Source: an uncultured Lachnospiraceae bacterium (GTDB taxonomy: Bacteria > Bacillota > Clostridia > Lachnospirales > Lachnospiraceae). Taken from it: a stretch of DNA of 64,000 nt. Shown piece after piece: positions 49,798 to 64,000 of the stretch; position 1 is the first letter of the stretch; every line of letters starts with the position of its first letter. The DNA lies in contig CANPYE010000001.1 in NCBI GenBank assembly GCA_947588005.1, positions 18,109 through 82,108 of the forward strand, in the 5' to 3' direction. The notes under the pieces are model-generated. The model saw nothing but the letters and a program-made list of their open reading frames with translations, made no database searches and had not been told where the DNA came from. Made by a program: the position numbers and the translations under genes.

Positions 49798-50712
49798 ATG
49801 CCAGCACCAGTTTCGGGTAATAATTGGGATAAGATCCGTCAGGGGCTTAAAGACGCCCAGATGTTAAACAGCCAGCGAAAATATAATCTGTCCATGGTCA
49901 AGTGCCGCCAGACGCTGGAGTTCATGGTGCAGGATCTGTGCAGCAAGGCTTCCATCACTACCACCAATGCGAATCAGGATCTGGCGTCCCTGATCGACGA
50001 GCTTTATTCCAACCGCTGGATCAGCAAAACCACCTGTGAACATTACCACAAGATCCGTATGCTTGGCAATAAAGCCGTACACGAAGGCAATGAAAACGCC
50101 TACGACGCGAATCAGGCCTGCCAGCTGCTCTCCCATGAAGCGGTTACATTTTCCAAAGATTATATGAACGATTCCCGGCAGCGGCCCCAGCAGCGCAGCT
50201 CTCAGCAGAGACCGGCGCAGCAGCAGCGGGCGGCGGGCGGAAGCGGTCAGTCCAGACCCCGTTCTTCCGCTTCGTCCAGAAGCCGCAGGCGCTCCCAGGA
50301 TGGCTTCCCTCTTTCCAGCACGGATCTGATGCGCATTGCTATCGTGATCATCGCAGTGATCGTCGTAATTGCGCTTGTACGCCTGCTTCGTTCCGGCGAG
50401 CCTTCCACGGACGAAACGACTCCCGCGGTATCGACGGAATCCCTGGCTGACGAACCGACGTCCGCGGCCGAGGAGGATGTTCCGACGACCGCAGCGCCTG
50501 AAACCATGGCCGAGACGACGCCGGCTCCGGTCTATAAGACCACCGATTACCTGAACGTCCGCTCAGAACCGAGTACCAGCAGCCGCCGGTTAGGCGTTCT
50601 GGACGCGGATACGGTAGTCGAATATTTAGGCGATTACGACGCAACCTGGGCCATCATTGACTATGAAGGCACGCAGGCATATGTATCGAAGCAATATCTG
50701 ACGCAGGATTAA
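49798..50712 (+). CDS. Membrane protein with DUF4145-like N-terminus and SH3-like C-terminus
   Basis: N-terminal helical region (RMLGNKAVHEG), TM segment, C-terminal YLNVRSEPSTSSRRLGVL SH3b motif. Start MPAPVSGNNW. Confidence 0.8.
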   Translation: MPAPVSGNNWDKIRQGLKDAQMLNSQRKYNLSMVKCRQTLEFMVQDLCSKASITTTNANQDLASLIDELYSNRWISKTTCEHYHKIRMLGNKAVHEGNENAYDANQACQLLSHEAVTFSKDYMNDSRQRPQQRSSQQRPAQQQRAAGGSGQSRPRSSASSRSRRRSQDGFPLSSTDLMRIAIVIIAVIVVIALVRLLRSGEPSTDETTPAVSTESLADEPTSAAEEDVPTTAAPETMAETTPAPVYKTTDYLNVRSEPSTSSRRLGVLDADTVVEYLGDYDATWAIIDYEGTQAYVSKQYLTQD

Positions 50713-50735
50713 CCCATAGTGGGAGTAAAGATACG

Positions 50736-50877
50736 AAAGAGCGCCGCAGGGTGCTCTTTCCGTATTTCCATGCGAGCCGGACGCCGGCGACGCCTTGCTT
50801 GTATTTCCACGAAAGCAGACCACCGGCGGCGGTTCTGCCCGTATTTCTGCCGGTGTGCCGGCGCGCAGAACCGCGCC
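50736..50877. repeat. Tandem array of ~39-40 bp hairpin units (minus-oriented)
   Basis: GTATTTC boundaries at 50762, 50801 and 50841; arms flank a short CCGGCG-type core. Confidence 0.7.
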
Positions 50878-50881
50878 CTCA

Positions 50882-50910
50882 TTGACAAACAAGCTGTTTT
50901 CTACTATACT
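50882..50910 (+). promoter_or_regulatory. Sigma-A-type promoter
   Basis: TTGACA-N17-TATACT upstream of 50947 CDS. Confidence 0.8.
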
Positions 50911-50946
50911 GAAAGAAAGTTTTATAATCGAATCGAGGGGATATTC

Positions 50947-51645
50947 ATGAAATATATCCACTACGGCCTGGGCATTCTGCTGACCTTCTGCCTGATGATC
51001 GCCCTTCTGCTCACCTCCGTGGAAGCTGTCGCCTACTGGACGCCGGGCTATTATGAAAAAGAATATACGAAATATAACGTCACCGACGCCGTGCATATGG
51101 AGATGGACGACCTGCTGGACGTTACGCACGAGATGATGGCGTACCTGCGCGGCAGGCGCGAGGATCTGCATGTGCCGACAATCGTGGACGGACAGCCCAG
51201 GGAATTTTTCAACGACCGCGAGATCGCGCATATGGAGGACGTGCGCGGCCTGTTCATCGGCGGTCTGCGGCTGCGGCTTATATGCCTCGCTGTTATCGTG
51301 ATCTGTCTGGCCGTTATGGCCGCGACGAAGGCGAACCTGCGGCACGTGCTTCCGAGGGCTGTCTGCGCGGGGACCGGGCTGTTCTTCGCCGGGGTCTGTA
51401 TACTGGCGGCGGTTATATTTTCGGATTTTTCGAAATACTTTATCATCTTCCACCACATTTTCTTCGATAACGACCTGTGGATTCTCGATCCCCGGACCGA
51501 TCTGCTGATCAACATTGTACCGGAGCCGTTCTTTATGGACACGGCGGCACGGATCGCGCTGGTCTACGGTATCTCTGTGGCAGCCGTCTTTCTGGTATGC
51601 CTCGGGATCGTACTGACCGGACGGCGCAAAAAGAAAGCACAGTAA
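50947..51645 (+). CDS. TIGR01906/DUF1461-like membrane protein
   Basis: MKYIHYGLGILLTFCLMIALLLTS…NDREIAHMEDVRGLF, several TM segments, LLINIVPEPFFMD. Confidence 0.8.
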   Translation: MKYIHYGLGILLTFCLMIALLLTSVEAVAYWTPGYYEKEYTKYNVTDAVHMEMDDLLDVTHEMMAYLRGRREDLHVPTIVDGQPREFFNDREIAHMEDVRGLFIGGLRLRLICLAVIVICLAVMAATKANLRHVLPRAVCAGTGLFFAGVCILAAVIFSDFSKYFIIFHHIFFDNDLWILDPRTDLLINIVPEPFFMDTAARIALVYGISVAAVFLVCLGIVLTGRRKKKAQ

Positions 51646-51694
51646 CCGCGAAACCTTCCGCTTTATATAGCAAGAAAGGATCAGCCTATCATTT

Positions 51695-53200
51695 ATGAAG
51701 AAAATCATTTCCGTTCTTCTGTGCCTTGTTCTGATCTTCGGCCTGCTGCCGGCGCGGGAAGTCCGCGCGGAAGGAGACTGGCCGGAGAACGTGAGCATCG
51801 AAGCGGAAGGCGGCATCGTCATAGACGCCTCCACCGGAGCGATCCTCTATGGCAGGAACATCCACAACACCTACTACCCCGCCAGCATCACAAAGATCCT
51901 GACGGCTCTTATTGTACTGGAAAACTGCAGTCTGGACGAAACCGTCCTGTTCTCCCACAACGCGGTCTACAATGTAGAAGCCGGCAGCACAAGCGCGGGC
52001 CTGGACGAAGGCGATACGTTAAGCGTCCGCGACTGTCTCTACGCCCTTCTTTTAAAATCAGCCAATGAAGTCGCTAACGCCCTTGCGGAGCATGTGGCCG
52101 GAAGCATCGACGATTTCGCCGTGATGATGAACGAAAAGGCCCGCTCCCTGGGCTGTGTGGACTCCCATTTCGCCAATCCGAGCGGACTGAATAACGACCA
52201 GCACTATACCTCCGCCTACGATATGGCCCTGATCGGCCGGGCGGCGCTTCAGAACGAGACGTTCATGAAGATCGATTCCACGCTTTACTACGATCTTCCC
52301 GTCACGAAGCGGAACCCGGAGGGCGTGCGCATTTATCCGGGACATAAGATGCTAAAGAAAAATATGCCCGAATACTACAGCGGCTGTCTGGGCGGCAAGA
52401 CCGGCTATACTTCGCTGGCGGGCAATACGCTGGTCACCTTTGCGGAGCGGGACGGCATGCGCCTGGTCGCCGTCGTACTGAACGGACACCAATCCCACTA
52501 CCGGGATACAAAGGCTCTCCTGGATTTCGGTTTTAATAATTTTCAGACCGTCAAAGCAGCGGATTTTGATTCCGCCTATACGGCGGTGGAGAATGATATG
52601 GTCATTGCGGGGCTTCCCGCGGCGGAGCTGTCCGGCCTGCAGCTGGATCCTGCTGGCGCGCTGACGCTGCCGCGGTCCGGCGATCCGGCCTCCGTGACTT
52701 CGCATCTGACCTATGAGCTGACGGAAAACGCGCCGTCCGGCGCCATCGCTCGGGTCGATTATCAATGGGGCGACCGAATGCTTGGCTGCGCCTACCTCAC
52801 CATGAATACGGTCGGAGGAGACGCTTCCGCCATTCCCGCTTCCATGCTGGAGGAGATCCGCGATATCACGCTTCATGCGGAGAGCGACGCCGCGGAATCC
52901 ACAGCCGCAGCACAGCCGGAACGGGCGCCCTTCTATATCCCGCCGATCGTATTCACCGTGCTTGGCATTATTGCGGCGCTCGGAGCGGTCTGCGCGGTCT
53001 TCGTGGCCATACGGGCTTATCAGGAGAAAAAAGAAGCGGAAGCCCGCATGCGCCGGCGGCAGAAGCGCATGGCACGCATGGGCGACGGGGTCTCCGCAGC
53101 GGATATCGATCTGGAAATGGAGCGCCGCCGGAATTATTACACCGCTAAGAAGCGGTCCCGCGGAAAACGGCCAAAACGGCCGGGGGATACCTTCTTATAA
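51695..53200 (+). CDS. D-alanyl-D-alanine carboxypeptidase (serine-type)
   Basis: YPASITKILTALIVLENC (SxxK), KSANEVANALAEH (SxN), GKTGYTSLAGNT (KTG), C-terminal TM. Confidence 0.95.
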   Translation: MKKIISVLLCLVLIFGLLPAREVRAEGDWPENVSIEAEGGIVIDASTGAILYGRNIHNTYYPASITKILTALIVLENCSLDETVLFSHNAVYNVEAGSTSAGLDEGDTLSVRDCLYALLLKSANEVANALAEHVAGSIDDFAVMMNEKARSLGCVDSHFANPSGLNNDQHYTSAYDMALIGRAALQNETFMKIDSTLYYDLPVTKRNPEGVRIYPGHKMLKKNMPEYYSGCLGGKTGYTSLAGNTLVTFAERDGMRLVAVVLNGHQSHYRDTKALLDFGFNNFQTVKAADFDSAYTAVENDMVIAGLPAAELSGLQLDPAGALTLPRSGDPASVTSHLTYELTENAPSGAIARVDYQWGDRMLGCAYLTMNTVGGDASAIPASMLEEIRDITLHAESDAAESTAAAQPERAPFYIPPIVFTVLGIIAALGAVCAVFVAIRAYQEKKEAEARMRRRQKRMARMGDGVSAADIDLEMERRRNYYTAKKRSRGKRPKRPGDTFL

Positions 53201-53246
53201 ACAGAGATGCGGCATCGGTACGTCTTTCGCATACGGATCTCATGGA

Positions 53247-53271
53247 AAAGCGGCGGTAATTCCGCCGCTTT
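53247..53271. terminator. Bidirectional terminator
   Basis: AAAGCGGCGG taatt CCGCCGCTTT between convergent genes. Confidence 0.8.
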
Positions 53272-54280
53272 ACTCATGCTTTTTCGCAGCCAGCCGTCTC
53301 TCCCGGCTGTGCTCCCGTTTCCTCTGCCGCTGCTCCTCCCGCTTTTCAAAAATCTCCCGGGCGGCTGCTTCGTCCACCAGCTTCATGGTCTTCACCACAT
53401 AGACGCTGTCGTCGTCCTTTTCCTTCTTCCGAATACGGATCTTACCGCGCACATAGCCGTGCTCCGGGCACACCGCCAGACAAAGGTACTGCCTGGAATT
53501 GACCGCGAACCACTGGAATTTCTTCCGGAGCATCCGCCGGCATTCCCGGCAGACCATATCGGTCACATTCTTATCCGCAAGGGCGTCGTCCCGCGACGCG
53601 AATTCCCGCGACACATATTTCAGATACGTCGGAAACTCCAGCCGCAGTTCCTCGTCCGCGTCCCGCGGCAGCCGGTAATAATCCACCGACAGATAATCCT
53701 TAAGCGTTCCGAAATCCAGCGCCTGCATCACCTTGCCGGTATAGTAAGCGTCATCCAGCGCCCGGTGGAAAGGCCGCTCCTCCTCCAGTCCCAGCTCCTC
53801 GACCACCCGGTCCAGCGACAACTTCTCGCTGCTTTCGCCAAGCTGGAGCGCGTACAGCTTCTGTATGTCATAATAGCACAGCGGGAACGCGAAAGGATTC
53901 TCCATCCCGTAGAAATCCATATTCCGCTGGAGCTCCACCAGATCCATGGAGCCCCATGTGCAGAATATGGCTCCCTCTCCGCACCATTTAAAAAAGTTTC
54001 CCACGGCATCCGGAAAATAACTTCCCTGGCTTACCAGATCCTTCATATGCAGGTGGGTCACCTGAATAATCCGATAATGCAGCTGCGTATACACCTGAGG
54101 CGTCACCAGCTGATGGTATTCGGAAATGATCTGGAGCCGCTCGTTCAGCTTCACCGCGCCGATTTCGATGATCTCAAAGGGAAAATGCTCTATGGAGTTT
54201 TCTTTTCCGCTCGGACTCTGGTTCCATTCCAGGTCGAACACAATGTACGAACTGCTCATCATGCGCCCTGCCCGCTTCAC
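53270..54280 (-). CDS. DnaQ-like 3'-5' exonuclease domain protein
   Basis: YIVFDLEWNQSPSG, EIIEIGAVKL, HRALDDAYYTGKVM. Confidence 0.88.
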   Translation of the reverse strand: MKRAGRMMSSSYIVFDLEWNQSPSGKENSIEHFPFEIIEIGAVKLNERLQIISEYHQLVTPQVYTQLHYRIIQVTHLHMKDLVSQGSYFPDAVGNFFKWCGEGAIFCTWGSMDLVELQRNMDFYGMENPFAFPLCYYDIQKLYALQLGESSEKLSLDRVVEELGLEEERPFHRALDDAYYTGKVMQALDFGTLKDYLSVDYYRLPRDADEELRLEFPTYLKYVSREFASRDDALADKNVTDMVCRECRRMLRKKFQWFAVNSRQYLCLAVCPEHGYVRGKIRIRKKEKDDDSVYVVKTMKLVDEAAAREIFEKREEQRQRKREHSRERRLAAKKHE

Positions 54281-54387
54281 AATTTAAACGACACCGTAGG
54301 AGATATCTGTGTGGACAGTATAGCACAGTTTTCAGCTTGTGTACAGAGATTATATAAATAAAAACCTATAGAAGACAACCGGCAATT

Positions 54388-55464
54388 TTAATATGTAAAC
54401 ATCTGCGTCCAATATTTTACGCCGCCCTGCTCATAATATCCGACGCCCAGCTTTGTATAGCGGCTGTCCAGGATGTTCGCCCGGTGGCCGGCGCTGTTCA
54501 TCCATTCCGTCATGACGCGTTCCGGCGTATCGTAACCATAAGCAATGTTCTCGCCGGCTCCGTTGTAGGAGATTCCCCGCTGATCCAGAACCGTATTGAA
54601 ATACGTTCCGTTCGGACGGTAATGGGAGAAATTCCCCACGATTTCCTGCGCGCGTACATCCGCCGCCGCCGAAAGCGCTGCAGACGCCGTTACCGGAGAA
54701 AGCCCGGCCGCTGCCCGCTGAACGTTAACCAGCTCTACGATGCGGGTGATGTAGGACGCCATCTCGCCGCCGTCCCCGGACTGCCCGCCTGTACCCGTTC
54801 CCGGCTGCTGCCCGGCGCCGCCATTGTTCTGACCGTTATTCTGGCCGCTGTTCTGACCGTTATTCTGGCCGCTGTTCTGACCATTATTCTGGCCGCCGGA
54901 CTGTGAGTTGTTTCCCTGACCGGAACCATTCCACAACCAGAAATCCTTCCAGTCGCCGTCCTGCTGCCAGAAATCACGGTTCTGCCCGCCAAGCCACGGA
55001 AACCAGCTGGTCCATGGACTCTGTAAGTCCGGGAGCTGCGTATCTGGTTCCTGAATATCCGGCGATTCTCCCGCAGCCGGCCCCTGTCCCGGGAACCACT
55101 CAGCTCCGGGCGCCTGTGTCTCCGGCGCCTGTACCTCCGGCATCTGCCCCGCATCCGGTCCCTGACCCGGGAACCACTCGGCCCCGGGCGTCTGCGTCCC
55201 CGGCGTCTGTACTTCCGGCGTCTGCCCTGCATCTGGCCCCTGTCCCGGGAACCACTCGGCTCCGGGCGCCTGTGTCTCCGGCGCCTGCACTTCCGGCGTC
55301 TGCGCCATCCACGAACCCTGTCCCGGAAACCACTCGCTGCCCTGCTCCTGCACCACATTCCCGCAGCCTGCTGCGCACGGCGGCGCAGCTCCCCGGGCCG
55401 GTTTCGCCAGCACACTCGATATAAAGATTCCTACTGCCGCCGCGTAAAAAATAATCCTTTTCAT
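54388..55464 (-). CDS. CAP-domain secreted protein with two repeat regions
   Basis: C-terminal CAP domain (LVNVQRAAAGLSPV…GENIAYGYDTPERVMTEWMNSAGHRANILDSRYTKLGVGYYEQGGVKYWTQMF); APGAEWFPGQGPDAGQTPEVQ and GQNNGQNS repeats. Confidence 0.92.
   Translation of the reverse strand: MKRIIFYAAAVGIFISSVLAKPARGAAPPCAAGCGNVVQEQGSEWFPGQGSWMAQTPEVQAPETQAPGAEWFPGQGPDAGQTPEVQTPGTQTPGAEWFPGQGPDAGQMPEVQAPETQAPGAEWFPGQGPAAGESPDIQEPDTQLPDLQSPWTSWFPWLGGQNRDFWQQDGDWKDFWLWNGSGQGNNSQSGGQNNGQNSGQNNGQNSGQNNGQNNGGAGQQPGTGTGGQSGDGGEMASYITRIVELVNVQRAAAGLSPVTASAALSAAADVRAQEIVGNFSHYRPNGTYFNTVLDQRGISYNGAGENIAYGYDTPERVMTEWMNSAGHRANILDSRYTKLGVGYYEQGGVKYWTQMFTY
54815..55330. repeat. Coding tandem repeats in the CAP protein (approximate limits)
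   Basis: 78-bp (26 aa) units, about 3-4 copies, plus 24-bp GQNNGQNS units. Confidence 0.8.
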
Positions 55465-55727
55465 CCGCTTTCCTCCTGTATTACATATGTTTTACATTTC
55501 TGTTACAAAATTATCGTATCATACAGCCTCTGGAAATTCCATAGGAAACGGCTGGAAGGATTACCAGCGCTTTCATAGCGGCAGGCGGCAGACCGGCGGC
55601 AGGCCTTACAAATCTTTCTTGTAATTTATTTCCGCGTTTTGTATAATATAGCTTAATCGGAAGAAACGGTGTTTTGCACAAGCGTGTCCGGAGGACATGA
55701 TATAACACACCTCAGGAAAGGACTAAA

Positions 55728-56618
55728 ATGACTATGAAGAAATCTGCCTTTCACCGTGCAGCCGCATTTGCCCTGGCGCTGGCACTTGGAACGATGATGC
55801 CGGTCATTGCCCAGGCGGCCGTGATCCGGACTCCATCCGCCGACGGGAGCGTTACTTACGGCAACGGCAGCGCGGTGATCGACGCCTCTCATACTTCAGA
55901 CGGCTACGTCATGATTCGGTATAGCGGCAGCGCTAAGAGAATCAAGGTACGCATTACAAAGAACACTCAGTACACATACGACCTGAATGTATCCGGCGCC
56001 TATGAGACATTTCCGCTGACGGAGGGCGACGGCGCTTATTCCGTTGCGATTTTCGAGCAGGTAGAAGGAAGCATGTACGCGCAGGCGGTAAACCAAACGA
56101 TCAATGTCTCCCTCTCCAACGACAAGCTGCCGTTCCTGTATCCGAACCAGTTCTGTAACTACAACGCCATGTCCGCCGTGGTCGGCGTGTCCGACACGGT
56201 ATGCGCCGGCGTCACGGATCCGCTCCAGAAGGTTGCCGCCATATACAATTACGCGGTGAATAATCTTTCTTACGACTATAATAAAGCGGCTACCGTCCAG
56301 AGCGGCTACCTGCCAAACATCGACAGCACGCTGGCAGCCCGCAGCGGTATCTGCTTCGATTACGCGTCCATGATGGTCGCCATGCTTCGGCTGCAGGATA
56401 TTCCTTCCAAACTGGTCATCGGCTACACCGGCGGCCAATACCACGCCTGGGTCAGCGTCTACACCGACGCCCAGGGCTGGATCGATAATGTTATCTTTTT
56501 TAACGGCAATGACTGGCGGTTCATGGATCCGACCTTTGCTTCTACCGGCAAGGGGAATCCTTCCGTCATTGAGCATATCAAAAACTCCGCAAATTACTCC
56601 GCGAAGTTTACCTACTGA
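55728..56618 (+). CDS. Secreted transglutaminase-like domain protein
   Basis: Signal peptide; GICFDYASMMVAMLRLQDIPSKLVIGYTGGQYHAWVSVY…WRFMDPTFAS. Confidence 0.92.
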   Translation: MTMKKSAFHRAAAFALALALGTMMPVIAQAAVIRTPSADGSVTYGNGSAVIDASHTSDGYVMIRYSGSAKRIKVRITKNTQYTYDLNVSGAYETFPLTEGDGAYSVAIFEQVEGSMYAQAVNQTINVSLSNDKLPFLYPNQFCNYNAMSAVVGVSDTVCAGVTDPLQKVAAIYNYAVNNLSYDYNKAATVQSGYLPNIDSTLAARSGICFDYASMMVAMLRLQDIPSKLVIGYTGGQYHAWVSVYTDAQGWIDNVIFFNGNDWRFMDPTFASTGKGNPSVIEHIKNSANYSAKFTY

Positions 56619-56638
56619 TACGAACGGAGGTTTCCCGT

Positions 56639-57688
56639 ATGGCGAAGACAAAATCACCGTTTAAAGGCCTGGCCCTGGCCGGCTTCTGTATGCAGATCTC
56701 CCTGCTGTTCAAATCCGCCGTTCCGATTTACGAAGGCCTGACGGTCATGGCAGAAGACGCCGCCGATGAAAATGAAAAGAAGATCCTCACCGGTATGTCC
56801 GACAAGATCCGGATGGGCGGTTCCTTCAGTCAGGCCGTCACTGAAGCGGACTGCTTTCCTCCCTATATGGTCGAAATGATCGTTCTGGGCGAGCGCACCG
56901 GTACGCTGGATGTAACCCTGGAAGGACTTTCCGATTACTATGAGCGTGAAACCAGACTGGCCGAGAGCCTGCGGAGGGCTCTCACCTATCCGGCCATGAT
57001 GGTATTTATGCTTCTTGTGATCTTATTTATCCTGTTTACAAGAATCATGCCTGTCTTCTCCGGCGTCTATGAGCAGCTGGGCGCGGCGATTCCGCCGGTG
57101 GCTCAGGCCGCCATCCGGATCGGCGGCATCTTAAGCGGCGTGGCTCTGGCGGTCATCATCATTCTCGCTGCAGCCATCATCTTCATCCGCCTTTTAAGCA
57201 GCGGCAGCAAACAGCCGGCCTTCGCCGCTGCCGTCATAAATTTCATAAACTCCCATTCAAATATCAGCCGGATGTCTGCTCTGCGCCGTTTCTGCAGCAC
57301 TATTTCCGTGACGCTGCGCTGCGGCCTGCGGCTGGAGGAAGGTATGAATATGGCGGAAAAGCTGGCGGACCATCCGCAGATATCCGCATCCATTAAGAAG
57401 GCCAACGAACTGGTGCTTAATGGCAGCAGCTTCTATGACGCAGTGAAGGACGCGGAACTGTTCTCCGGTTTTGACCTGCAGCTTCTGCGCGTGGCCAGCC
57501 GGGCCGGTCAGCTTGAATCCATCCTGCGCAGGCTGGCGGACGATTACGACCAGAAGACGGAAGACGCTCTGGATTCCATGGTGGCCCGCCTGGAGCCGGC
57601 CATCGTTACGGTTCTTGCCGTCGCCGTCGGTCTGGTGCTTCTGTCCGTCATGCTTCCGTTAGCCGGCATCCTGTCCGCGATCGGTTAG
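56639..57688 (+). CDS. Type II secretion/type IV pilus F (PilC-like) protein
   Basis: VLGERTGTLDVTLEGLSDYYERETRLAESLRRALTYPAMM and repeated F-domain RVASRAGQLESILRRLADDYDQKTEDALDSMVARLEPAI. Confidence 0.92.
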   Translation: MAKTKSPFKGLALAGFCMQISLLFKSAVPIYEGLTVMAEDAADENEKKILTGMSDKIRMGGSFSQAVTEADCFPPYMVEMIVLGERTGTLDVTLEGLSDYYERETRLAESLRRALTYPAMMVFMLLVILFILFTRIMPVFSGVYEQLGAAIPPVAQAAIRIGGILSGVALAVIIILAAAIIFIRLLSSGSKQPAFAAAVINFINSHSNISRMSALRRFCSTISVTLRCGLRLEEGMNMAEKLADHPQISASIKKANELVLNGSSFYDAVKDAELFSGFDLQLLRVASRAGQLESILRRLADDYDQKTEDALDSMVARLEPAIVTVLAVAVGLVLLSVMLPLAGILSAIG

Positions 57689-57700
57689 GAGGCGTTTGCT

Positions 57701-58039
57701 ATGATACATGTGGTTCGGCAGAAGAAGAAATTTCCGATCATCGGCCTTCTGGGCTCCGCGGTCCTCATCGCGGCCTGCCTCTATCTGTTTGCGGCAGGAA
57801 CCGGAAGCATAGCCGAACGGACGAAGGAAGAAAATCTGAACACACTGACAGAAGCTGTAAAACGCGCTGCTGTGCAGTGTTATGCCATTGAAGGGCGGTA
57901 TCCGCCCAGCGTGGAATATCTTGAGGAACACTACGGCATTTCCATCGACCGGGAAGTCTATCATGTGTTTTACAGCGGATGGGCCAGCAACATCATGCCT
58001 GACATCACCATAATCCCGGCAGAAAAGGAGGCAGAGTGA
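57701..58039 (+). CDS. Pilus-locus hypothetical protein, pseudopilin-like
   Basis: N-terminal TM; AVKRAAVQCYAIEGRYPPSVEYLEEHYG. Confidence 0.65.
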   Translation: MIHVVRQKKKFPIIGLLGSAVLIAACLYLFAAGTGSIAERTKEENLNTLTEAVKRAAVQCYAIEGRYPPSVEYLEEHYGISIDREVYHVFYSGWASNIMPDITIIPAEKEAE

Positions 58040-58635
58040 TGGCGGCGAATACAAGCAAGGCGTCACTGGCGCCTTGCTTGCATGGAAATACAAGCAAAGC
58101 GTCACTGGCGCTCTCCTCGCATGGAAACCCAAAAACCTCCGGGCGGTCCTCGCAGGGAGCGGAGCAGCTTTTCCCGGCTCTGCTGTTTTTTGTATTTCTG
58201 ATCTGCACGATATTTACGATTCTGATCGGCAGCCGCGTCTATGAAAATATCCGCGGGCGTGACAATGCTTCCTTCGAGACAGACACAGCGCTTGCTTATA
58301 TTACCAATAAGGTCCGCCAGAGCGATAAATTGGACGCTGTCGAAGTCCGCGACATCGACGGCTGTTCCGTGCTTGTCATGCTTTCCCGTTACGGCAATAC
58401 CGATTATGAAACCTGGATCTATGAAAGCGGCGGTCAGCTGAAGCTTAAGGAGCTGTTTGCCCGGGCCGACAGCGGCCTGGGCGTAGACGACGGCCTGGAG
58501 ATTATGGACTGTCCGTCTCTGACCTTCTCAATTGAAGAAAAAGACAGCGGGGACCGCGTACTGATCATTTCCCTGGGCGACGCAGAAGAAGCCAGACTGC
58601 TTCTGCGCAGCGGCCGCAAAGGAGGCGCGTCATGA
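58036..58635 (+). CDS. DUF4860-like pilus-locus protein with repeat-derived N-terminus
   Basis: TM LLFFVFLICTIFTILIGSRVYENI; first residues MAANTSKASLAPCLHGNTSKASLALSSHGN derive from two 39-bp repeats. ATGA-type overlap with the upstream stop. Confidence 0.75.
   Translation: MMAANTSKASLAPCLHGNTSKASLALSSHGNPKTSGRSSQGAEQLFPALLFFVFLICTIFTILIGSRVYENIRGRDNASFETDTALAYITNKVRQSDKLDAVEVRDIDGCSVLVMLSRYGNTDYETWIYESGGQLKLKELFARADSGLGVDDGLEIMDCPSLTFSIEEKDSGDRVLIISLGDAEEARLLLRSGRKGGAS
58048..58125. repeat. Two in-frame 39-bp hairpin repeat units
   Basis: AATACAAGCAAGGCGTCACTGGCGCCTTGCTTGCATGGA and AATACAAGCAAAGCGTCACTGGCGCTCTCCTCGCATGGA. Confidence 0.85.
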
Positions 58636-59255
58636 AGAAACGCCAGCGTCCTTCTTATGCTTTTCTGATGGAAATGATGTGGGTGTGCGCATTTTTCCTG
58701 ATCTGCGCCTGTATCTTTGTTCTGGCATTTGCTAAAGCGGAACAGATGAGCCGTAAAGCGGAAACACTGAATAAGGCAACGCTTGCGGCCTCTAACGCTA
58801 TGGAAGATGTCTATGCGGCGTTTGACGGCGCGGTGAGCGGCGGCGCAGCCGGAACGGCAGGCAGCGGCTCTGAATCCGACACGGCGAGCTCCGGCTCTGA
58901 CGCGGCAAGCAGCGGTCCTGAAACCGGTACGGCGAACTCCGATTCTGACGCGGCAAGCAGCGGTCCTAAATCTGCAGCAAACAGCAGCCCCGGAAGCGAT
59001 GCGGCAGACGGCGGCCCGGCCGGATTCGCAGCAGAAGTCGAAAGCATCCGGGCCAACTACTCCTCTGAGACGTTCACGCTGGACATTCGTACAGACATAA
59101 CCGACGGTCTCCTGACCGTCGTTGTCGAAGCGACCGACGTGCGGGACGGCGAAGTTTTATGCACGTTAAACGGCGCACGTGCGGCGCTTTCTTCCGCCCG
59201 CTCCGATGGCATGGAAGCGTCTGCCGCCATAGCCGCAGAAGGGAGACCATTATGA
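58632..59255 (+). CDS. Pilus-locus membrane-anchored protein with Ser/Gly/Ala-rich repeats
   Basis: N-terminal TM; SGSDAASSGPETGTANSDSDAASSGP repeats. Confidence 0.7.
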   Translation: MKKRQRPSYAFLMEMMWVCAFFLICACIFVLAFAKAEQMSRKAETLNKATLAASNAMEDVYAAFDGAVSGGAAGTAGSGSESDTASSGSDAASSGPETGTANSDSDAASSGPKSAANSSPGSDAADGGPAGFAAEVESIRANYSSETFTLDIRTDITDGLLTVVVEATDVRDGEVLCTLNGARAALSSARSDGMEASAAIAAEGRPL

Positions 59256-59728
59256 AGAACCGCATCAGCATCGGCATCTCCTCGATCGTGTTGATTTTCC
59301 TGATTCTGTGTCTGGCTGTATTCAGCCTCCTGAGCTTAAGCGACGCCAAAACGGCGCTGTCATTCTCAGAACGCCACACGGACGCGGTGCGCATCTACTA
59401 CGCGGCAGACGCCCAGGCGCAGACATTTATCCGCGATTACCGGAAAGCGCTGGCCGCCGGGGCTGCGTTATCTTCTGTTTCGCAGGAAAGCGCCTCTGCG
59501 GCAGCACAGACGGCGGCCCAGGCGCTCCCGGAAGGCAATGCGGTTTCCGTCTCGGAAGACGGCGTTGTCCGCTGCGATGTGCCGCTTGCCAACGGCCAGA
59601 CGCTCCGCATGGAGCTGGACGCCTCCGGTCGTGATGTTCTGTCCTATTACGTCTTCAACAGCACCGAGTATGTCATTGACACGCGCATGCCTGTGTTCGG
59701 CGCCGACCTGACCCAGCCGTCCCAGTAG
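59253..59728 (+). CDS. Pilus-locus hypothetical protein (pseudopilin-like)
   Basis: MKNRISIGISSIVLIFLILCLAVFSLLSLSDAK…; overlaps the upstream stop. Track start 59159 is too early. Confidence 0.7.
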
Positions 59729-59820
59729 CGCCCTGGGCCTTTATACCGGCCGCGGAACTGTAGACTGATACTGCGGGATGCCCTATTAATTACGACTATT
59801 CAGGAAAGGAAACCTCCACT

Positions 59821-60879
59821 ATGAACATACAGGAAATCTTGAAACAGGCAGTCGATCAGGAAGCCTCCGACATCTTTATGATTCCCGGCATTCCGATTTC
59901 CATGAAGATCCACGGCCAGATCCGCCCGATGAATGACGAACGCGTTTTCCCGGATGAGATGGACAAACTGATCACGGAAATTTATGAAGTCAGCAATCAC
60001 CGCAGGATGGATCATATCCTGGATACCGGCGACGACGATTTTTCCTTCGCCATTCCCGGGCTCTCCCGTTTCCGCGCCAGCATTCTGAAGCAGCGCGGCT
60101 CTCTGGGCGCAATCATCCGAATCGTTCGGTTCGAGCTTCCGGATTACACCCAGTTAGGCATCCCGGACGGCGTCATGAAGATCTCGACGCTTAAAAAGGG
60201 GCTGGTGCTGGTGACCGGCGCAGCGGGCAGCGGCAAATCCACGACGCTGGCCTGCGTCATCGACAAGATCAATCATGAGCGCGGCGCCCACATCATCACG
60301 CTGGAGGATCCGATCGAGTACCTGCACCGCCATGATAAATCTGTCGTGACCCAGCGCGAGATCGGCCAGGATACCGAGAGCTATGTCAATGGCCTCCGCG
60401 CCGCCCTGCGGCAGGCGCCGGACGTCATTCTTCTGGGAGAAATGCGCGACTACGAGACGATCCGCATCGCCATGACGGCGGCGGAGACAGGCCACCTGGT
60501 CATTTCCACTCTGCATACCGTCGGCGCGGCCAACACCATCGACCGCATCGTGGACGTGTTCCCGCCGGACGGCCAGCAGCAGATCCGCGTTCAGCTGTCC
60601 ATGGTGCTGCAGGCGGTCATTTCCCAACAGCTTCTGACTGCAAAGGACGGCAGGCTGGCTCCCGCGTTCGAGATAATGTACCTGAACAGCGCCATCCGCA
60701 ATATGATCCGCGAGAACAAGATCCACCAGATCGATAATGTGATTGCGACCGGCATGTCAGAGGGCATGGTCAGCATGAACAACAGCCTTCTGCGCCTGTT
60801 CCAGCAGGGCCGAATCGACAAAGAGACCTGCATCAGCTACAGCACGGATTCGGAACAGATGCGGATGCGGCTGGTCTGA
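59821..60879 (+). CDS. PilT-like type IV pilus ATPase
   Basis: Walker A VLVTGAAGSGKSTTLACVID, HIITLEDPIEYLH, DVILLGEMRDYETI, ETGHLVISTLHT. Confidence 0.93.
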   Translation: MNIQEILKQAVDQEASDIFMIPGIPISMKIHGQIRPMNDERVFPDEMDKLITEIYEVSNHRRMDHILDTGDDDFSFAIPGLSRFRASILKQRGSLGAIIRIVRFELPDYTQLGIPDGVMKISTLKKGLVLVTGAAGSGKSTTLACVIDKINHERGAHIITLEDPIEYLHRHDKSVVTQREIGQDTESYVNGLRAALRQAPDVILLGEMRDYETIRIAMTAAETGHLVISTLHTVGAANTIDRIVDVFPPDGQQQIRVQLSMVLQAVISQQLLTAKDGRLAPAFEIMYLNSAIRNMIRENKIHQIDNVIATGMSEGMVSMNNSLLRLFQQGRIDKETCISYSTDSEQMRMRLV

Positions 60880-60890
60880 TGATAATAATG

Positions 60891-60919
60891 CGAGGAGAGC
60901 GTCACTGGCGCTCTCCTCG
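60891..60919. repeat. Dispersed hairpin repeat, third locus
   Basis: CGAGGAGAGCG-TCACTGG-CGCTCTCCTCG followed by CATGGAAATACAA. Confidence 0.85.
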
Positions 60920-60930
60920 CATGGAAATAC

Positions 60931-60977
60931 AAACGCACGCATACGCCATTGTGTCCGATATAGCGCTGCGTGCGTTT
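60931..60977. terminator. Terminator hairpin
   Basis: AAACGCACGCA…TGCGTGCGTTT followed by AAATTTTATTT. Confidence 0.65.
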
Positions 60978-60982
60978 AAATT

Positions 60983-62590
60983 TTATTTAACGATCGTATA
61001 TCCCTCGTAAACTGCCGTAAATTCCGCCACCGGGTCATTCGCGTGGATCTCGTCTCCCAGCCGGTATATTGAATAAACCGCTCCCTCCGGCTTCGTGGAA
61101 GAACCGTTTGCTCCGGCCGATGCCGCAGGAGAACCGTCTGTTCGAGCCGCCTTCGCAGCAGAACCATTCGCCCCGCTGCTATTTCCCGCCAGCACGTCCA
61201 CCGCATCTGCATCAAATTCATCCGCAATATAGACCGGAATCACCGACAGAAGAATATCTGCACAGCCCATGCTGCCGTCGTAGGAATACGATACCAGACT
61301 GCTGATGGAATTCCGGCACAGGCCATCCTGCGGATCGATATAGGGGGTCCGCATCTCTCCGCCGTCCATCTGATAATAGCGCTGCTGGTCCATGGAAGTT
61401 ATCGCGTAATCATGCAGATACACCAGACTTATCGGGCCGTAGTATTGCATGATCGCCAGCTGGCGGATCTGACCGTCTTCCCCGGAACTCTCAGCCCCTG
61501 TTACCGCTCTGTCATAAAGATTAAAAGAATAACTCACATCCCGCCCATCCAGATTCCGCACGAATCCGTCATAGCTTGAGATGCTTCCGTTGGTAAATCC
61601 GGCATCCATAAGCGACTCTGCCAGATAATCCGCGATAAACGCGTTTTTCATCCAGTAAAAATCGATAAAACTGTCGATGCCATTTTCCGCCGCAAAAACA
61701 AGATATTCATCCGACACAGAAAGCCGCACCCGGTTATCTCCCAGAAGCTCCAGCTCCACCGCATCCGGGTCATTCGCGTACGCCAGAACTTCCTTAAAAT
61801 ACGCGGCCACCTCTTCATTCACCCGCGGATCAAATTCAGCGGCTATCGGGTCTGCCTCGCTGGCGAAAAGATTGTTATACGTCTGGTAGACAGCCGGCAG
61901 GTACAGCCACCGGCCGCCTGCAGCGTCCAGCTTCGCAAACGCCTCATATAACGGCGCGTCGATCGTGATTTCTTCATTCGGATGATCGTTAATGAAACGG
62001 ACACTTCCTGCCGCCCGAACAGCAGCTTTTCCGTTCGCGGCTTCCGCGACTGCGCAGCCGTGGATCTCGTTCGCATACACGGCAGCATCGTTTCCATATG
62101 TTTCTGCCTGCCCGGTGCCGTCAGCCGCTGTTTCCGCGCCGCTTCCCTCATCCTCGGCCGCCGTTCCAGCCGCGTCTGCAGCCCCGGCTTCTTCCTGCCG
62201 CCCAGCCGCGCCGCTTCCGTCGTCCTCTTCCGCAAAATCTCCCGCCGCCCGCACATTTTCAAACATCCAGTACGCCTTCTCCGCCGCCGCTGTGTACGCC
62301 GCGGTCACGTCGCGCTTCTCGCTCTGCGCCGATCCGCCGTCCGCTCCCACCTCGTACAGAAAGACGAAATCACCGCCGCAATTCACCCTCGACGACAGCG
62401 CCGTGATCTCCGTCCAGCCGGGCTCACCCCGCACCAGTCCCACGATAAAATACGCAAACGCCCCAATCCCGATCAGAAGAAACACGGCCGCAGCGATAAC
62501 TCTGCGGCCGATGTGTTTCTCGGAAACCTCGATTTTCTCTACCGGCTCCAGATAGGGCTTAGGGCTTTCATGATTCGCTCTTCTGCCCAT
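60983..62590 (-). CDS. Large membrane-anchored hypothetical protein
   Basis: N-terminal TM (RRVIAAAVFLLIGIGAFAYFIVGLV); long extracellular-like region with Ala/Gly-rich segment. Confidence 0.75.
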   Translation of the reverse strand: MGRRANHESPKPYLEPVEKIEVSEKHIGRRVIAAAVFLLIGIGAFAYFIVGLVRGEPGWTEITALSSRVNCGGDFVFLYEVGADGGSAQSEKRDVTAAYTAAAEKAYWMFENVRAAGDFAEEDDGSGAAGRQEEAGAADAAGTAAEDEGSGAETAADGTGQAETYGNDAAVYANEIHGCAVAEAANGKAAVRAAGSVRFINDHPNEEITIDAPLYEAFAKLDAAGGRWLYLPAVYQTYNNLFASEADPIAAEFDPRVNEEVAAYFKEVLAYANDPDAVELELLGDNRVRLSVSDEYLVFAAENGIDSFIDFYWMKNAFIADYLAESLMDAGFTNGSISSYDGFVRNLDGRDVSYSFNLYDRAVTGAESSGEDGQIRQLAIMQYYGPISLVYLHDYAITSMDQQRYYQMDGGEMRTPYIDPQDGLCRNSISSLVSYSYDGSMGCADILLSVIPVYIADEFDADAVDVLAGNSSGANGSAAKAARTDGSPAASAGANGSSTKPEGAVYSIYRLGDEIHANDPVAEFTAVYEGYTIVK

Positions 62591-63919
62591 CTAGATCACC
62601 GCCAGCAGCAACAATAGCAGGAACACCACCAGGAGCACCGCGATCACGATCAGACCGATGACAGCGCCTTTAAAGCAGGACCTTGCGTTCCTCTTGAAAT
62701 GGAAATGTTTAAACACAGCTCCCCCGATCAGGCCGAGCAGCGGCAGGAAGAAGGAGATAAGCGCGTACCAGAAGCTTCCGGTATCGCGGGTCGGAGCCGC
62801 CAGGAATTCCTCCAGCTCCTTCTCCATCTTCTTCGACTGCAGCGCATCATTGGCCTTCCGGGCCGCGGCCGCCTTCTCCACCTCATCCGGAGAAATGATC
62901 GTGACGGCCTTTACCGGCTCGCCCTTCTCGCGGAGTTCCTTATACTTCTCAATCTCTGCCTTATTGCCGTAGACCCAGTGGTCATGGCCGATGTTCACAA
63001 ACTCCGGCTTATCCACGCTGTAATCATGGATTGACGGGTCATACACATACTGCACCTTGTTCTTCTCCAGCTGCGGATCCGGGATCGGGATCGCGGAGAT
63101 CAGCGAGTGGGTGTAAGGATGCAGCGGGAAGTCGAACAGTTCTTCGGCTTCCGCCACCTCCACGATCCTCCCCTTGTAAATCACGCCGATCCGGTCGGAT
63201 ATGAACCGGACCACGCTCAGATCGTGGGCGATGAACAGGTAAGTAACGTCCTTCTCCCTCTGGAACTGCTTCATCAGATTCAGCACCTGCGCGCGGATGG
63301 ACACATCCAGCGCGGAGATCGGCTCGTCGGCCACCACCAGCTCCGGCTCCATGACCATGGCGCGGGCGATTCCGATACGCTGACGCTGGCCGCCGGAGAA
63401 CTCGTGGGGGTAACGGGTCAGGTGCTCCGGCAGAAGGCCAACCTGATGGATCATGTTCTCCACCTTCTGCACGCGATCCGCCTCATTCTCAAAGAGGCCG
63501 AAGTTGTAAAGTCCCTCAGAAATGATATAATCCACGGTGGCACGCTCATTCAGCGACGCGGCCGGGTCCTGGAATACCATCTGTACGTTGCGGATGACCT
63601 CCCGGTCCAGGGCGTGCGGGATCTTTCCGGAAATCCGGACCCCCTTGTACTGGATCTCGCCGGCCGCCAGCGGGTTCACGCGGATGACCGCGCGGCCGAT
63701 GGTGGTCTTGCCGGAACCGGACTCGCCGACCAGGGAGAATGTCTCGCCCTTGTAGATGTCAAAAGATGCATCCGTAACGGCACGGACGGCATTATCGCCC
63801 TTGCCGAATGTAATATCAATATCTTTGATCGACAGCAGGATCTCCCTGCCGTTTTCTGCGATCGGACCGTGCTCGGGGAAGAGGGAACGGCCTTTTTTCT
63901 TTGTTTCTGTATTCGCCAT
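62591..63919 (-). CDS. Oligopeptide/dipeptide ABC transporter ATP-binding protein (OppF-like)
   Basis: [55 protein letters not shown]; extra C-terminal TM segments. Confidence 0.93.
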
Positions 63920-63933
63920 CTTACCTTCCTCCC

Positions 63934-64000
63934 TTAAATATTAAATGCTTCCATGAGCTTGCCGTGGATATCGTGAATGCCTTCCGGCTTCTCGATCTTC
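63934..64000 (-). CDS. C-terminal end of upstream CDS, probably the paired OppD-like ATPase (truncated)
   Basis: Frame reads …[20 protein letters not shown] or equivalent before the stop at 63934; position upstream of the OppF-like gene. Confidence 0.4.

Follow-up and report, generated by a model that had tools for sequence, protein, structure and literature searches.

A family of short palindromic repeats in uncultured Lachnospiraceae, with units inserted in frame into protein genes

The window, a 64,000-nt stretch of DNA from an uncultured Lachnospiraceae bacterium, contains a pilus/secretion-type locus on the plus strand, comprising a T2SSF gene (PF00482; 56639–57688), a DUF4860 gene (PF16152, E 7.6e-25; 58039–58635) and a T2SSE ATPase gene (PF00437; 59821–60879). 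The DUF4860 gene carries a 26-residue repeat insertion after codon 3. Read from the ATG at 58039, the protein begins MAA-NTSKASLAPCLHG-NTSKASLALSSHG-NPK..., with residues 4–29 encoded by two adjacent 39-bp units (58048–58086 and 58087–58125, plus strand; 87% identity), and both the coordinates and the in-frame fusion given in the preliminary description were confirmed. The ORF adjoining the DUF4860 gene (58632–59255) includes Ser/Gly/Ala/Asp-rich direct repeats of about 48 bp (58854–58990, plus strand). On the minus strand, ORF 54388–55464 shows, by eye, tandem PGAEWFPGQGP-type repeats, an N/G/Q-rich stretch and then a CAP/SCP-like C-terminal part.

Unit 1 consists of AATAC, a type-A 7-nt arm, the core GCGTCACTGGCGC (58060–58072), the matching arm and GCATGGA. 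Its 11-bp arms, CAAGCAAGGCG and CGCCTTGCTTG, flank TCACTGG and are fully complementary, and its DNA fold has an energy of -14.9 kcal/mol (z = -5.8). Unit 2 shares the core (58099–58111) and joins a type-A left arm (AAGCAAA) to a type-B right arm (TCTCCTC), which places CAAGCAAAGCG opposite CGCTCTCCTCG; its fold is at the level of shuffled sequence (z = -0.5). The units had been described as a perfect hairpin and a mosaic, respectively, and the arm sequences and folds bear this out. A third family member, a near-perfect type-B hairpin (60887–60925, plus strand; fold z = -8.8), lies directly 3′ of the T2SSE gene, between convergent genes, and a degenerate one, AATACAAGCAAGGCGTCGCCGGCGTCCGGCTCGCATG, is found on the minus strand at about 50769–50805.

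The unit is not limited to this locus. In the 3.05-Mb genome, the core has 96 exact occurrences and 176 with at most one mismatch, as against 0 and 10, respectively, for a reversed-pattern control; the frequency of the 39-bp family is far above chance. A weight-matrix census of the 419 kb around known copies identified 98 arrays, of which 50 hold one unit, 30 two, 16 three and 2 four, for a total of at least 166 units; these counts are lower bounds, and tandem copy number may be collapsed in them because the genomes bearing the family are short-read draft MAGs. Neighboring units were spaced by 39 bp in 54 cases and by 44 bp in 6. Units begin with AATAC, a 7-nt arm, GCGTCACTGGCGC and the complementary arm, followed by either GCATGGA (39-bp form) or GCATACTGACGT (44-bp form); they abut with a constant linker, and the unique spacers that separate CRISPR repeats were not present. 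Across the genome the core is constant and the arms fall into a few discrete types, with true mosaics among the units, as had been proposed from the window. Right arms of the GTTTTTT type were followed by GCATACTGACGT in 22 cases and by GCATGG in 2 (10 unclear), and those of the AAGCAAG type by GCATGG in 120 cases and by GCATACTGACGT in 3 (35 unclear). When extra type-A references were used, overlap erased the type-B class, and class counts were taken from the other classification.

The two arms of a unit normally co-vary. Watson-Crick pairing across the 7 arm positions was 73–91%, compared with expectations under independence of 40–63% at six positions and 89% at the seventh, which is nearly invariant. 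The mean number of arm mismatches was 1.4 in 7, whereas shuffling the right arms raised it to 2.9. The earlier proposal that arms are exchanged at the conserved loop holds in that true mosaics exist, but such exchange is not the rule. Strict mosaics, each joining two arms that are common in perfect hairpins, represented 6 of the 166 units, unit 2 of the window being additional; a few looser cases add to these, and mosaics account for about 4–6% of units. In all six strict mosaics the linker was the one proper to the right arm, which fits recombination between tandem units better than dedicated arm-swapping. Because arrays of unlike units are common, the simplest account of the mosaics would be recombination or deletion between neighboring tandem units at the identical 13-bp core, with the right arm and its linker carried together. 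We infer this origin rather than observe it, since no uncollapsed precursor of the mosaic unit was found in the relatives, whose sites are empty or too degenerate. Template switching between arms may afterwards restore pairing. The whole arm pair may also differ at orthologous positions; at position 60887, two sister species have other arm types with the flank unchanged.

A scan of about 85,000 species, with one genome per species, returned the pattern from no genomes other than MAGs of uncultured Lachnospiraceae with isolate names of the form "Lapin...", a prefix that we read as rabbit and hence as indicating a rabbit-gut origin. Among the sampled relatives, about ten species, all of one genus, carry the repeats in abundance and the others have essentially none; the family does not extend beyond this genus of rabbit-gut Lachnospiraceae. 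No family match was obtained in the viral, plasmid and phage sets, and a literature search for the core sequence returned no paper. Many copies are intergenic, such as the hairpin at 60887–60925, and this could suggest conserved regulatory RNA or terminator elements. We regard such a role as improbable: an Rfam search of window positions 50000–64000 gave no match, no T-run was seen behind those hairpins that were inspected, presence differs between close species, and copies also occur inside genes.

Comparison with orthologues bears on the copies inside genes. The DUF4860 orthologues of at least 12 sister species start without the 26 residues, which are missing from all readable sister orthologues; the sister genes (about 85% identical) open with ATGGCG-AAC or similar, whereas the window genome has ATGGCGGCG plus 78 bp. 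Neither observation that the preliminary description had named as refuting it was made, the orthologues lacking this N-terminus and the unit occurring beyond this locus. The clearest insertion case is NadD. In the window genome (G000), the gene reads GAATAC, 78 bp, AAATAC and GGG, corresponding to 26 extra residues. The other 25 genomes of the genus search all gave a NadD match, one of them a 37-residue fragment; the remaining 24 were readable and all had an uninterrupted REY motif, which reads GAATAC in most of the relatives' DNA that was inspected. In the AlphaFold model of the NadD of the window genome, the insert (136–164) is the sole internal segment with pLDDT below 50, and the rest of the fold is well predicted. 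The claim that repeats enter coding sequence without frameshift was thus supported at both DUF4860 and NadD by empty orthologues.

The DUF4860 extension could alternatively be functional in the pilus-locus protein and under selection, its encoding by a repeat being incidental; it is indeed in frame, and the ATGA that overlaps the upstream gene is kept. Its absence from all readable sister orthologues, and the reading of the same repeat DNA in three frames in unrelated proteins (NTSKASLAPCLHG, YKQGVTGALLAWK and IQARRHWRLACME), leave very little room for this explanation.

Arrays were assigned as coding by open frames and Pfam domains, and in the case of DUF4860 and NadD additionally by comparison with empty orthologues; the remaining in-frame cases are open frames, mostly without an empty-orthologue comparison. 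They include a HelD-like helicase, a CobQ-type amidotransferase, a heparinase-like protein and antiporter-type membrane proteins in the window genome, and AnmK, a NusG-like protein and a beta-galactosidase in relatives. One open frame of 1283 residues (L099, G000:C69:8000-15000) combines the HelD-like helicase with a C-terminal part that looks unrelated; three separate hairpin arrays (7 units) lie within it. Of the six reading frames, five are open in the consensus 39-bp unit and none in the consensus 44-bp unit, where each contains a stop; the 44-bp linker occurred in 0 of 11 coding arrays vs. 24 of 87 others (Fisher test, p = 0.06). The insertions add a number of bases divisible by three, so that the protein is lengthened by blocks of 13 residues and is not broken. 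Copy number at orthologous sites varies between genomes in 39-bp steps: a surface protein has one unit in the window genome and two at the same codon in a relative, and other orthologous sites have 4 vs. 1 and 3 vs. 1 vs. 0 units.

Given that the family was found in draft MAGs, short-read misassembly might be suspected of having put repeats into genes. We find this hardly credible, as 39-bp units are shorter than typical reads, the flanks are syntenic on both sides, the insertions are whole-unit and in frame, and the in-gene insertion in CobQ is common to two independent bins (G000 and G002).

The junctions of empty sites read AATAC (NadD and C122), AATAA or GATAC, with weaker cases of TATGC and AACGC. 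Filled sites have AATAC-like sequence on both sides, and the gain consists of whole units. Judged from these junctions, copies appear to spread by whole-unit insertion at AATAC-like targets, an interpretation that goes beyond the preliminary description. Each insertion would be flanked on either side by AATAC, which reads GTATT on the other strand; the element would in this way regenerate its own target, and head-to-tail arrays could grow, whether by re-insertion or by slippage.

An IS200-type element of roughly 826 bp occurs in three sister species with 93–95% identity (L307:2284-3109, minus strand; also L303 and L302), and truncated or contig-end copies are present in others. Contig-end fragments in G023, G004 and G025 suggest that multi-copy elements have been collapsed by the assembly. 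Of ten readable left-end junctions, a count that includes contig-end fragments in which the other IS end is not visible, four stop exactly at the foot of a hairpin (GTATT), and one right-end junction runs on into CGTCAGTATGC and a hairpin; the remaining targets are TATT-like or T-rich. Because the IS abuts the hairpin foot at these left-end junctions, its TnpA is a candidate mobilizer of the hairpins: either the IS enzyme also moves them, or the IS homes on them as targets. When the short targets are compared, those of the IS200-type element are TATT-like and the empty sites of hairpins are AATAC, AATAA or GATAC, some of them only weakly alike. The left and right IS ends (ACGGGCTTTAGCCCG and CCACCCGTTTTACGGGTGGCGGCGACT) have no sequence in common with the hairpin. 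The distributions of the IS200-type element and the hairpins agree in part only, and IS content, like tandem copy number, is uncertain in draft MAGs. No Y1 transposase (Y1_Tnp) was detected in the window genome (81% complete), in which the only match to the IS200-type element is 68 bp long at 77%; G002 and G012 have hairpins and no detected IS, and G025 has the IS and only 2 exact cores. The idea that copy number simply tracks the presence of a RAYT/Y1 transposase was rejected, Y1_Tnp being absent in several copy-rich genomes.

Whole-unit variation in copy number at orthologous sites, together with the lack of an enzyme in the window genome, would also be compatible with fixed chromosomal repeats that spread by recombination, slippage and gene conversion only, with no transposition, the IS200-type element using hairpin feet as insertion sites. 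Known insertion sequences, including IS1397 and IS621, target REPs in this way (PMC1525189). We nevertheless consider fixed repeats unlikely, because isolated copies occur at loci that are unrelated to one another and for which many relatives have a clean empty site (NadD); such copies require insertion at new sites, and slippage does not provide it. In our judgment, the units probably represent a short, non-autonomous, mobile palindromic element specific to the genus, the DUF4860 N-terminus being one insertion, with TnpA acting in trans and recombination between tandem units as its putative steps. An IS200/IS605-type TnpA with TATT-like targets may mobilize the hairpins in trans as single-stranded DNA. 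A more specific version, which is conceivable if somewhat doubtful, holds that the IS200-type TnpA moves the hairpin in trans, that GTATT is both the target and the right end of the hairpin, so that insertion recreates the target, that the frame-neutral 39-bp form has been selected for passing through genes, and that half-units reshuffle at the core.

Rickettsia is the best-known source of in-frame palindromic insertions, which have been hard to explain mechanistically. Like the Rickettsia palindromic elements (RPEs; reviewed in PMC10969869), the family is dispersed palindromic DNA that lies in frame in unrelated protein genes and adds a peptide, as in DUF4860 and NadD. RPEs, however, are about 150 bp long, whereas the present units, from Lachnospiraceae (Bacillota), are 39 bp, form head-to-tail arrays of 1–4 and have interchangeable arms around a fixed core. 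With REP/BIME sequences (GTAG and CGTC families; RAYT), which can be intragenic (PMC3733652), the family shares short, imperfect, high-copy hairpins with a fixed foot motif that are clustered and sometimes intragenic. The tandem order here is direct, not head-to-head, and the feet are AATAC and GCATGGA or GCATACTGACGT, with no unpaired GTAG or CGTC tag at one foot. No RAYT gene between two inverted REPs was found: the window genome has no detected Y1_Tnp, and the sister IS200-type TnpA, which has a hairpin on one side only, lacks by eye the NP(L/V)(R/K)xG motif (PMC2817692). The only associated enzyme is an ordinary IS200-type TnpA, unlike in REP/RAYT systems.

IS200/IS605 elements recognize a hairpin and insert on the 3′ side of a fixed short sequence, which here is TATT-like, and a mechanism of this kind would account for the insertion site; unlike these elements, the hairpin shares no sequence with the IS ends and encodes no protein, and mobilization is a candidate step only. 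PARCELs resemble the family in being tandem, frame-keeping coding repeats with dyad symmetry, but a PARCEL repeat is amphipathic, spans 25 residues and lies in ORFs with no assigned function, many of which have membrane-targeting signals, whereas the units described here are of 13 residues, are read in three frames and lie mostly outside genes. On this comparison, the family behaves most like RPEs and intragenic REPs, yet is a member of neither, since size, foot motif, direct tandem order and the lack of a RAYT differ; we file it as an interspersed palindromic repeat variant.

The clade offers about a dozen species with differing copy numbers, many pairs of empty and filled sites, insertions in core enzymes (NadD) and a candidate single-strand transposase, and these resources make the entry of repeats into genes, and their tolerance there, directly testable.
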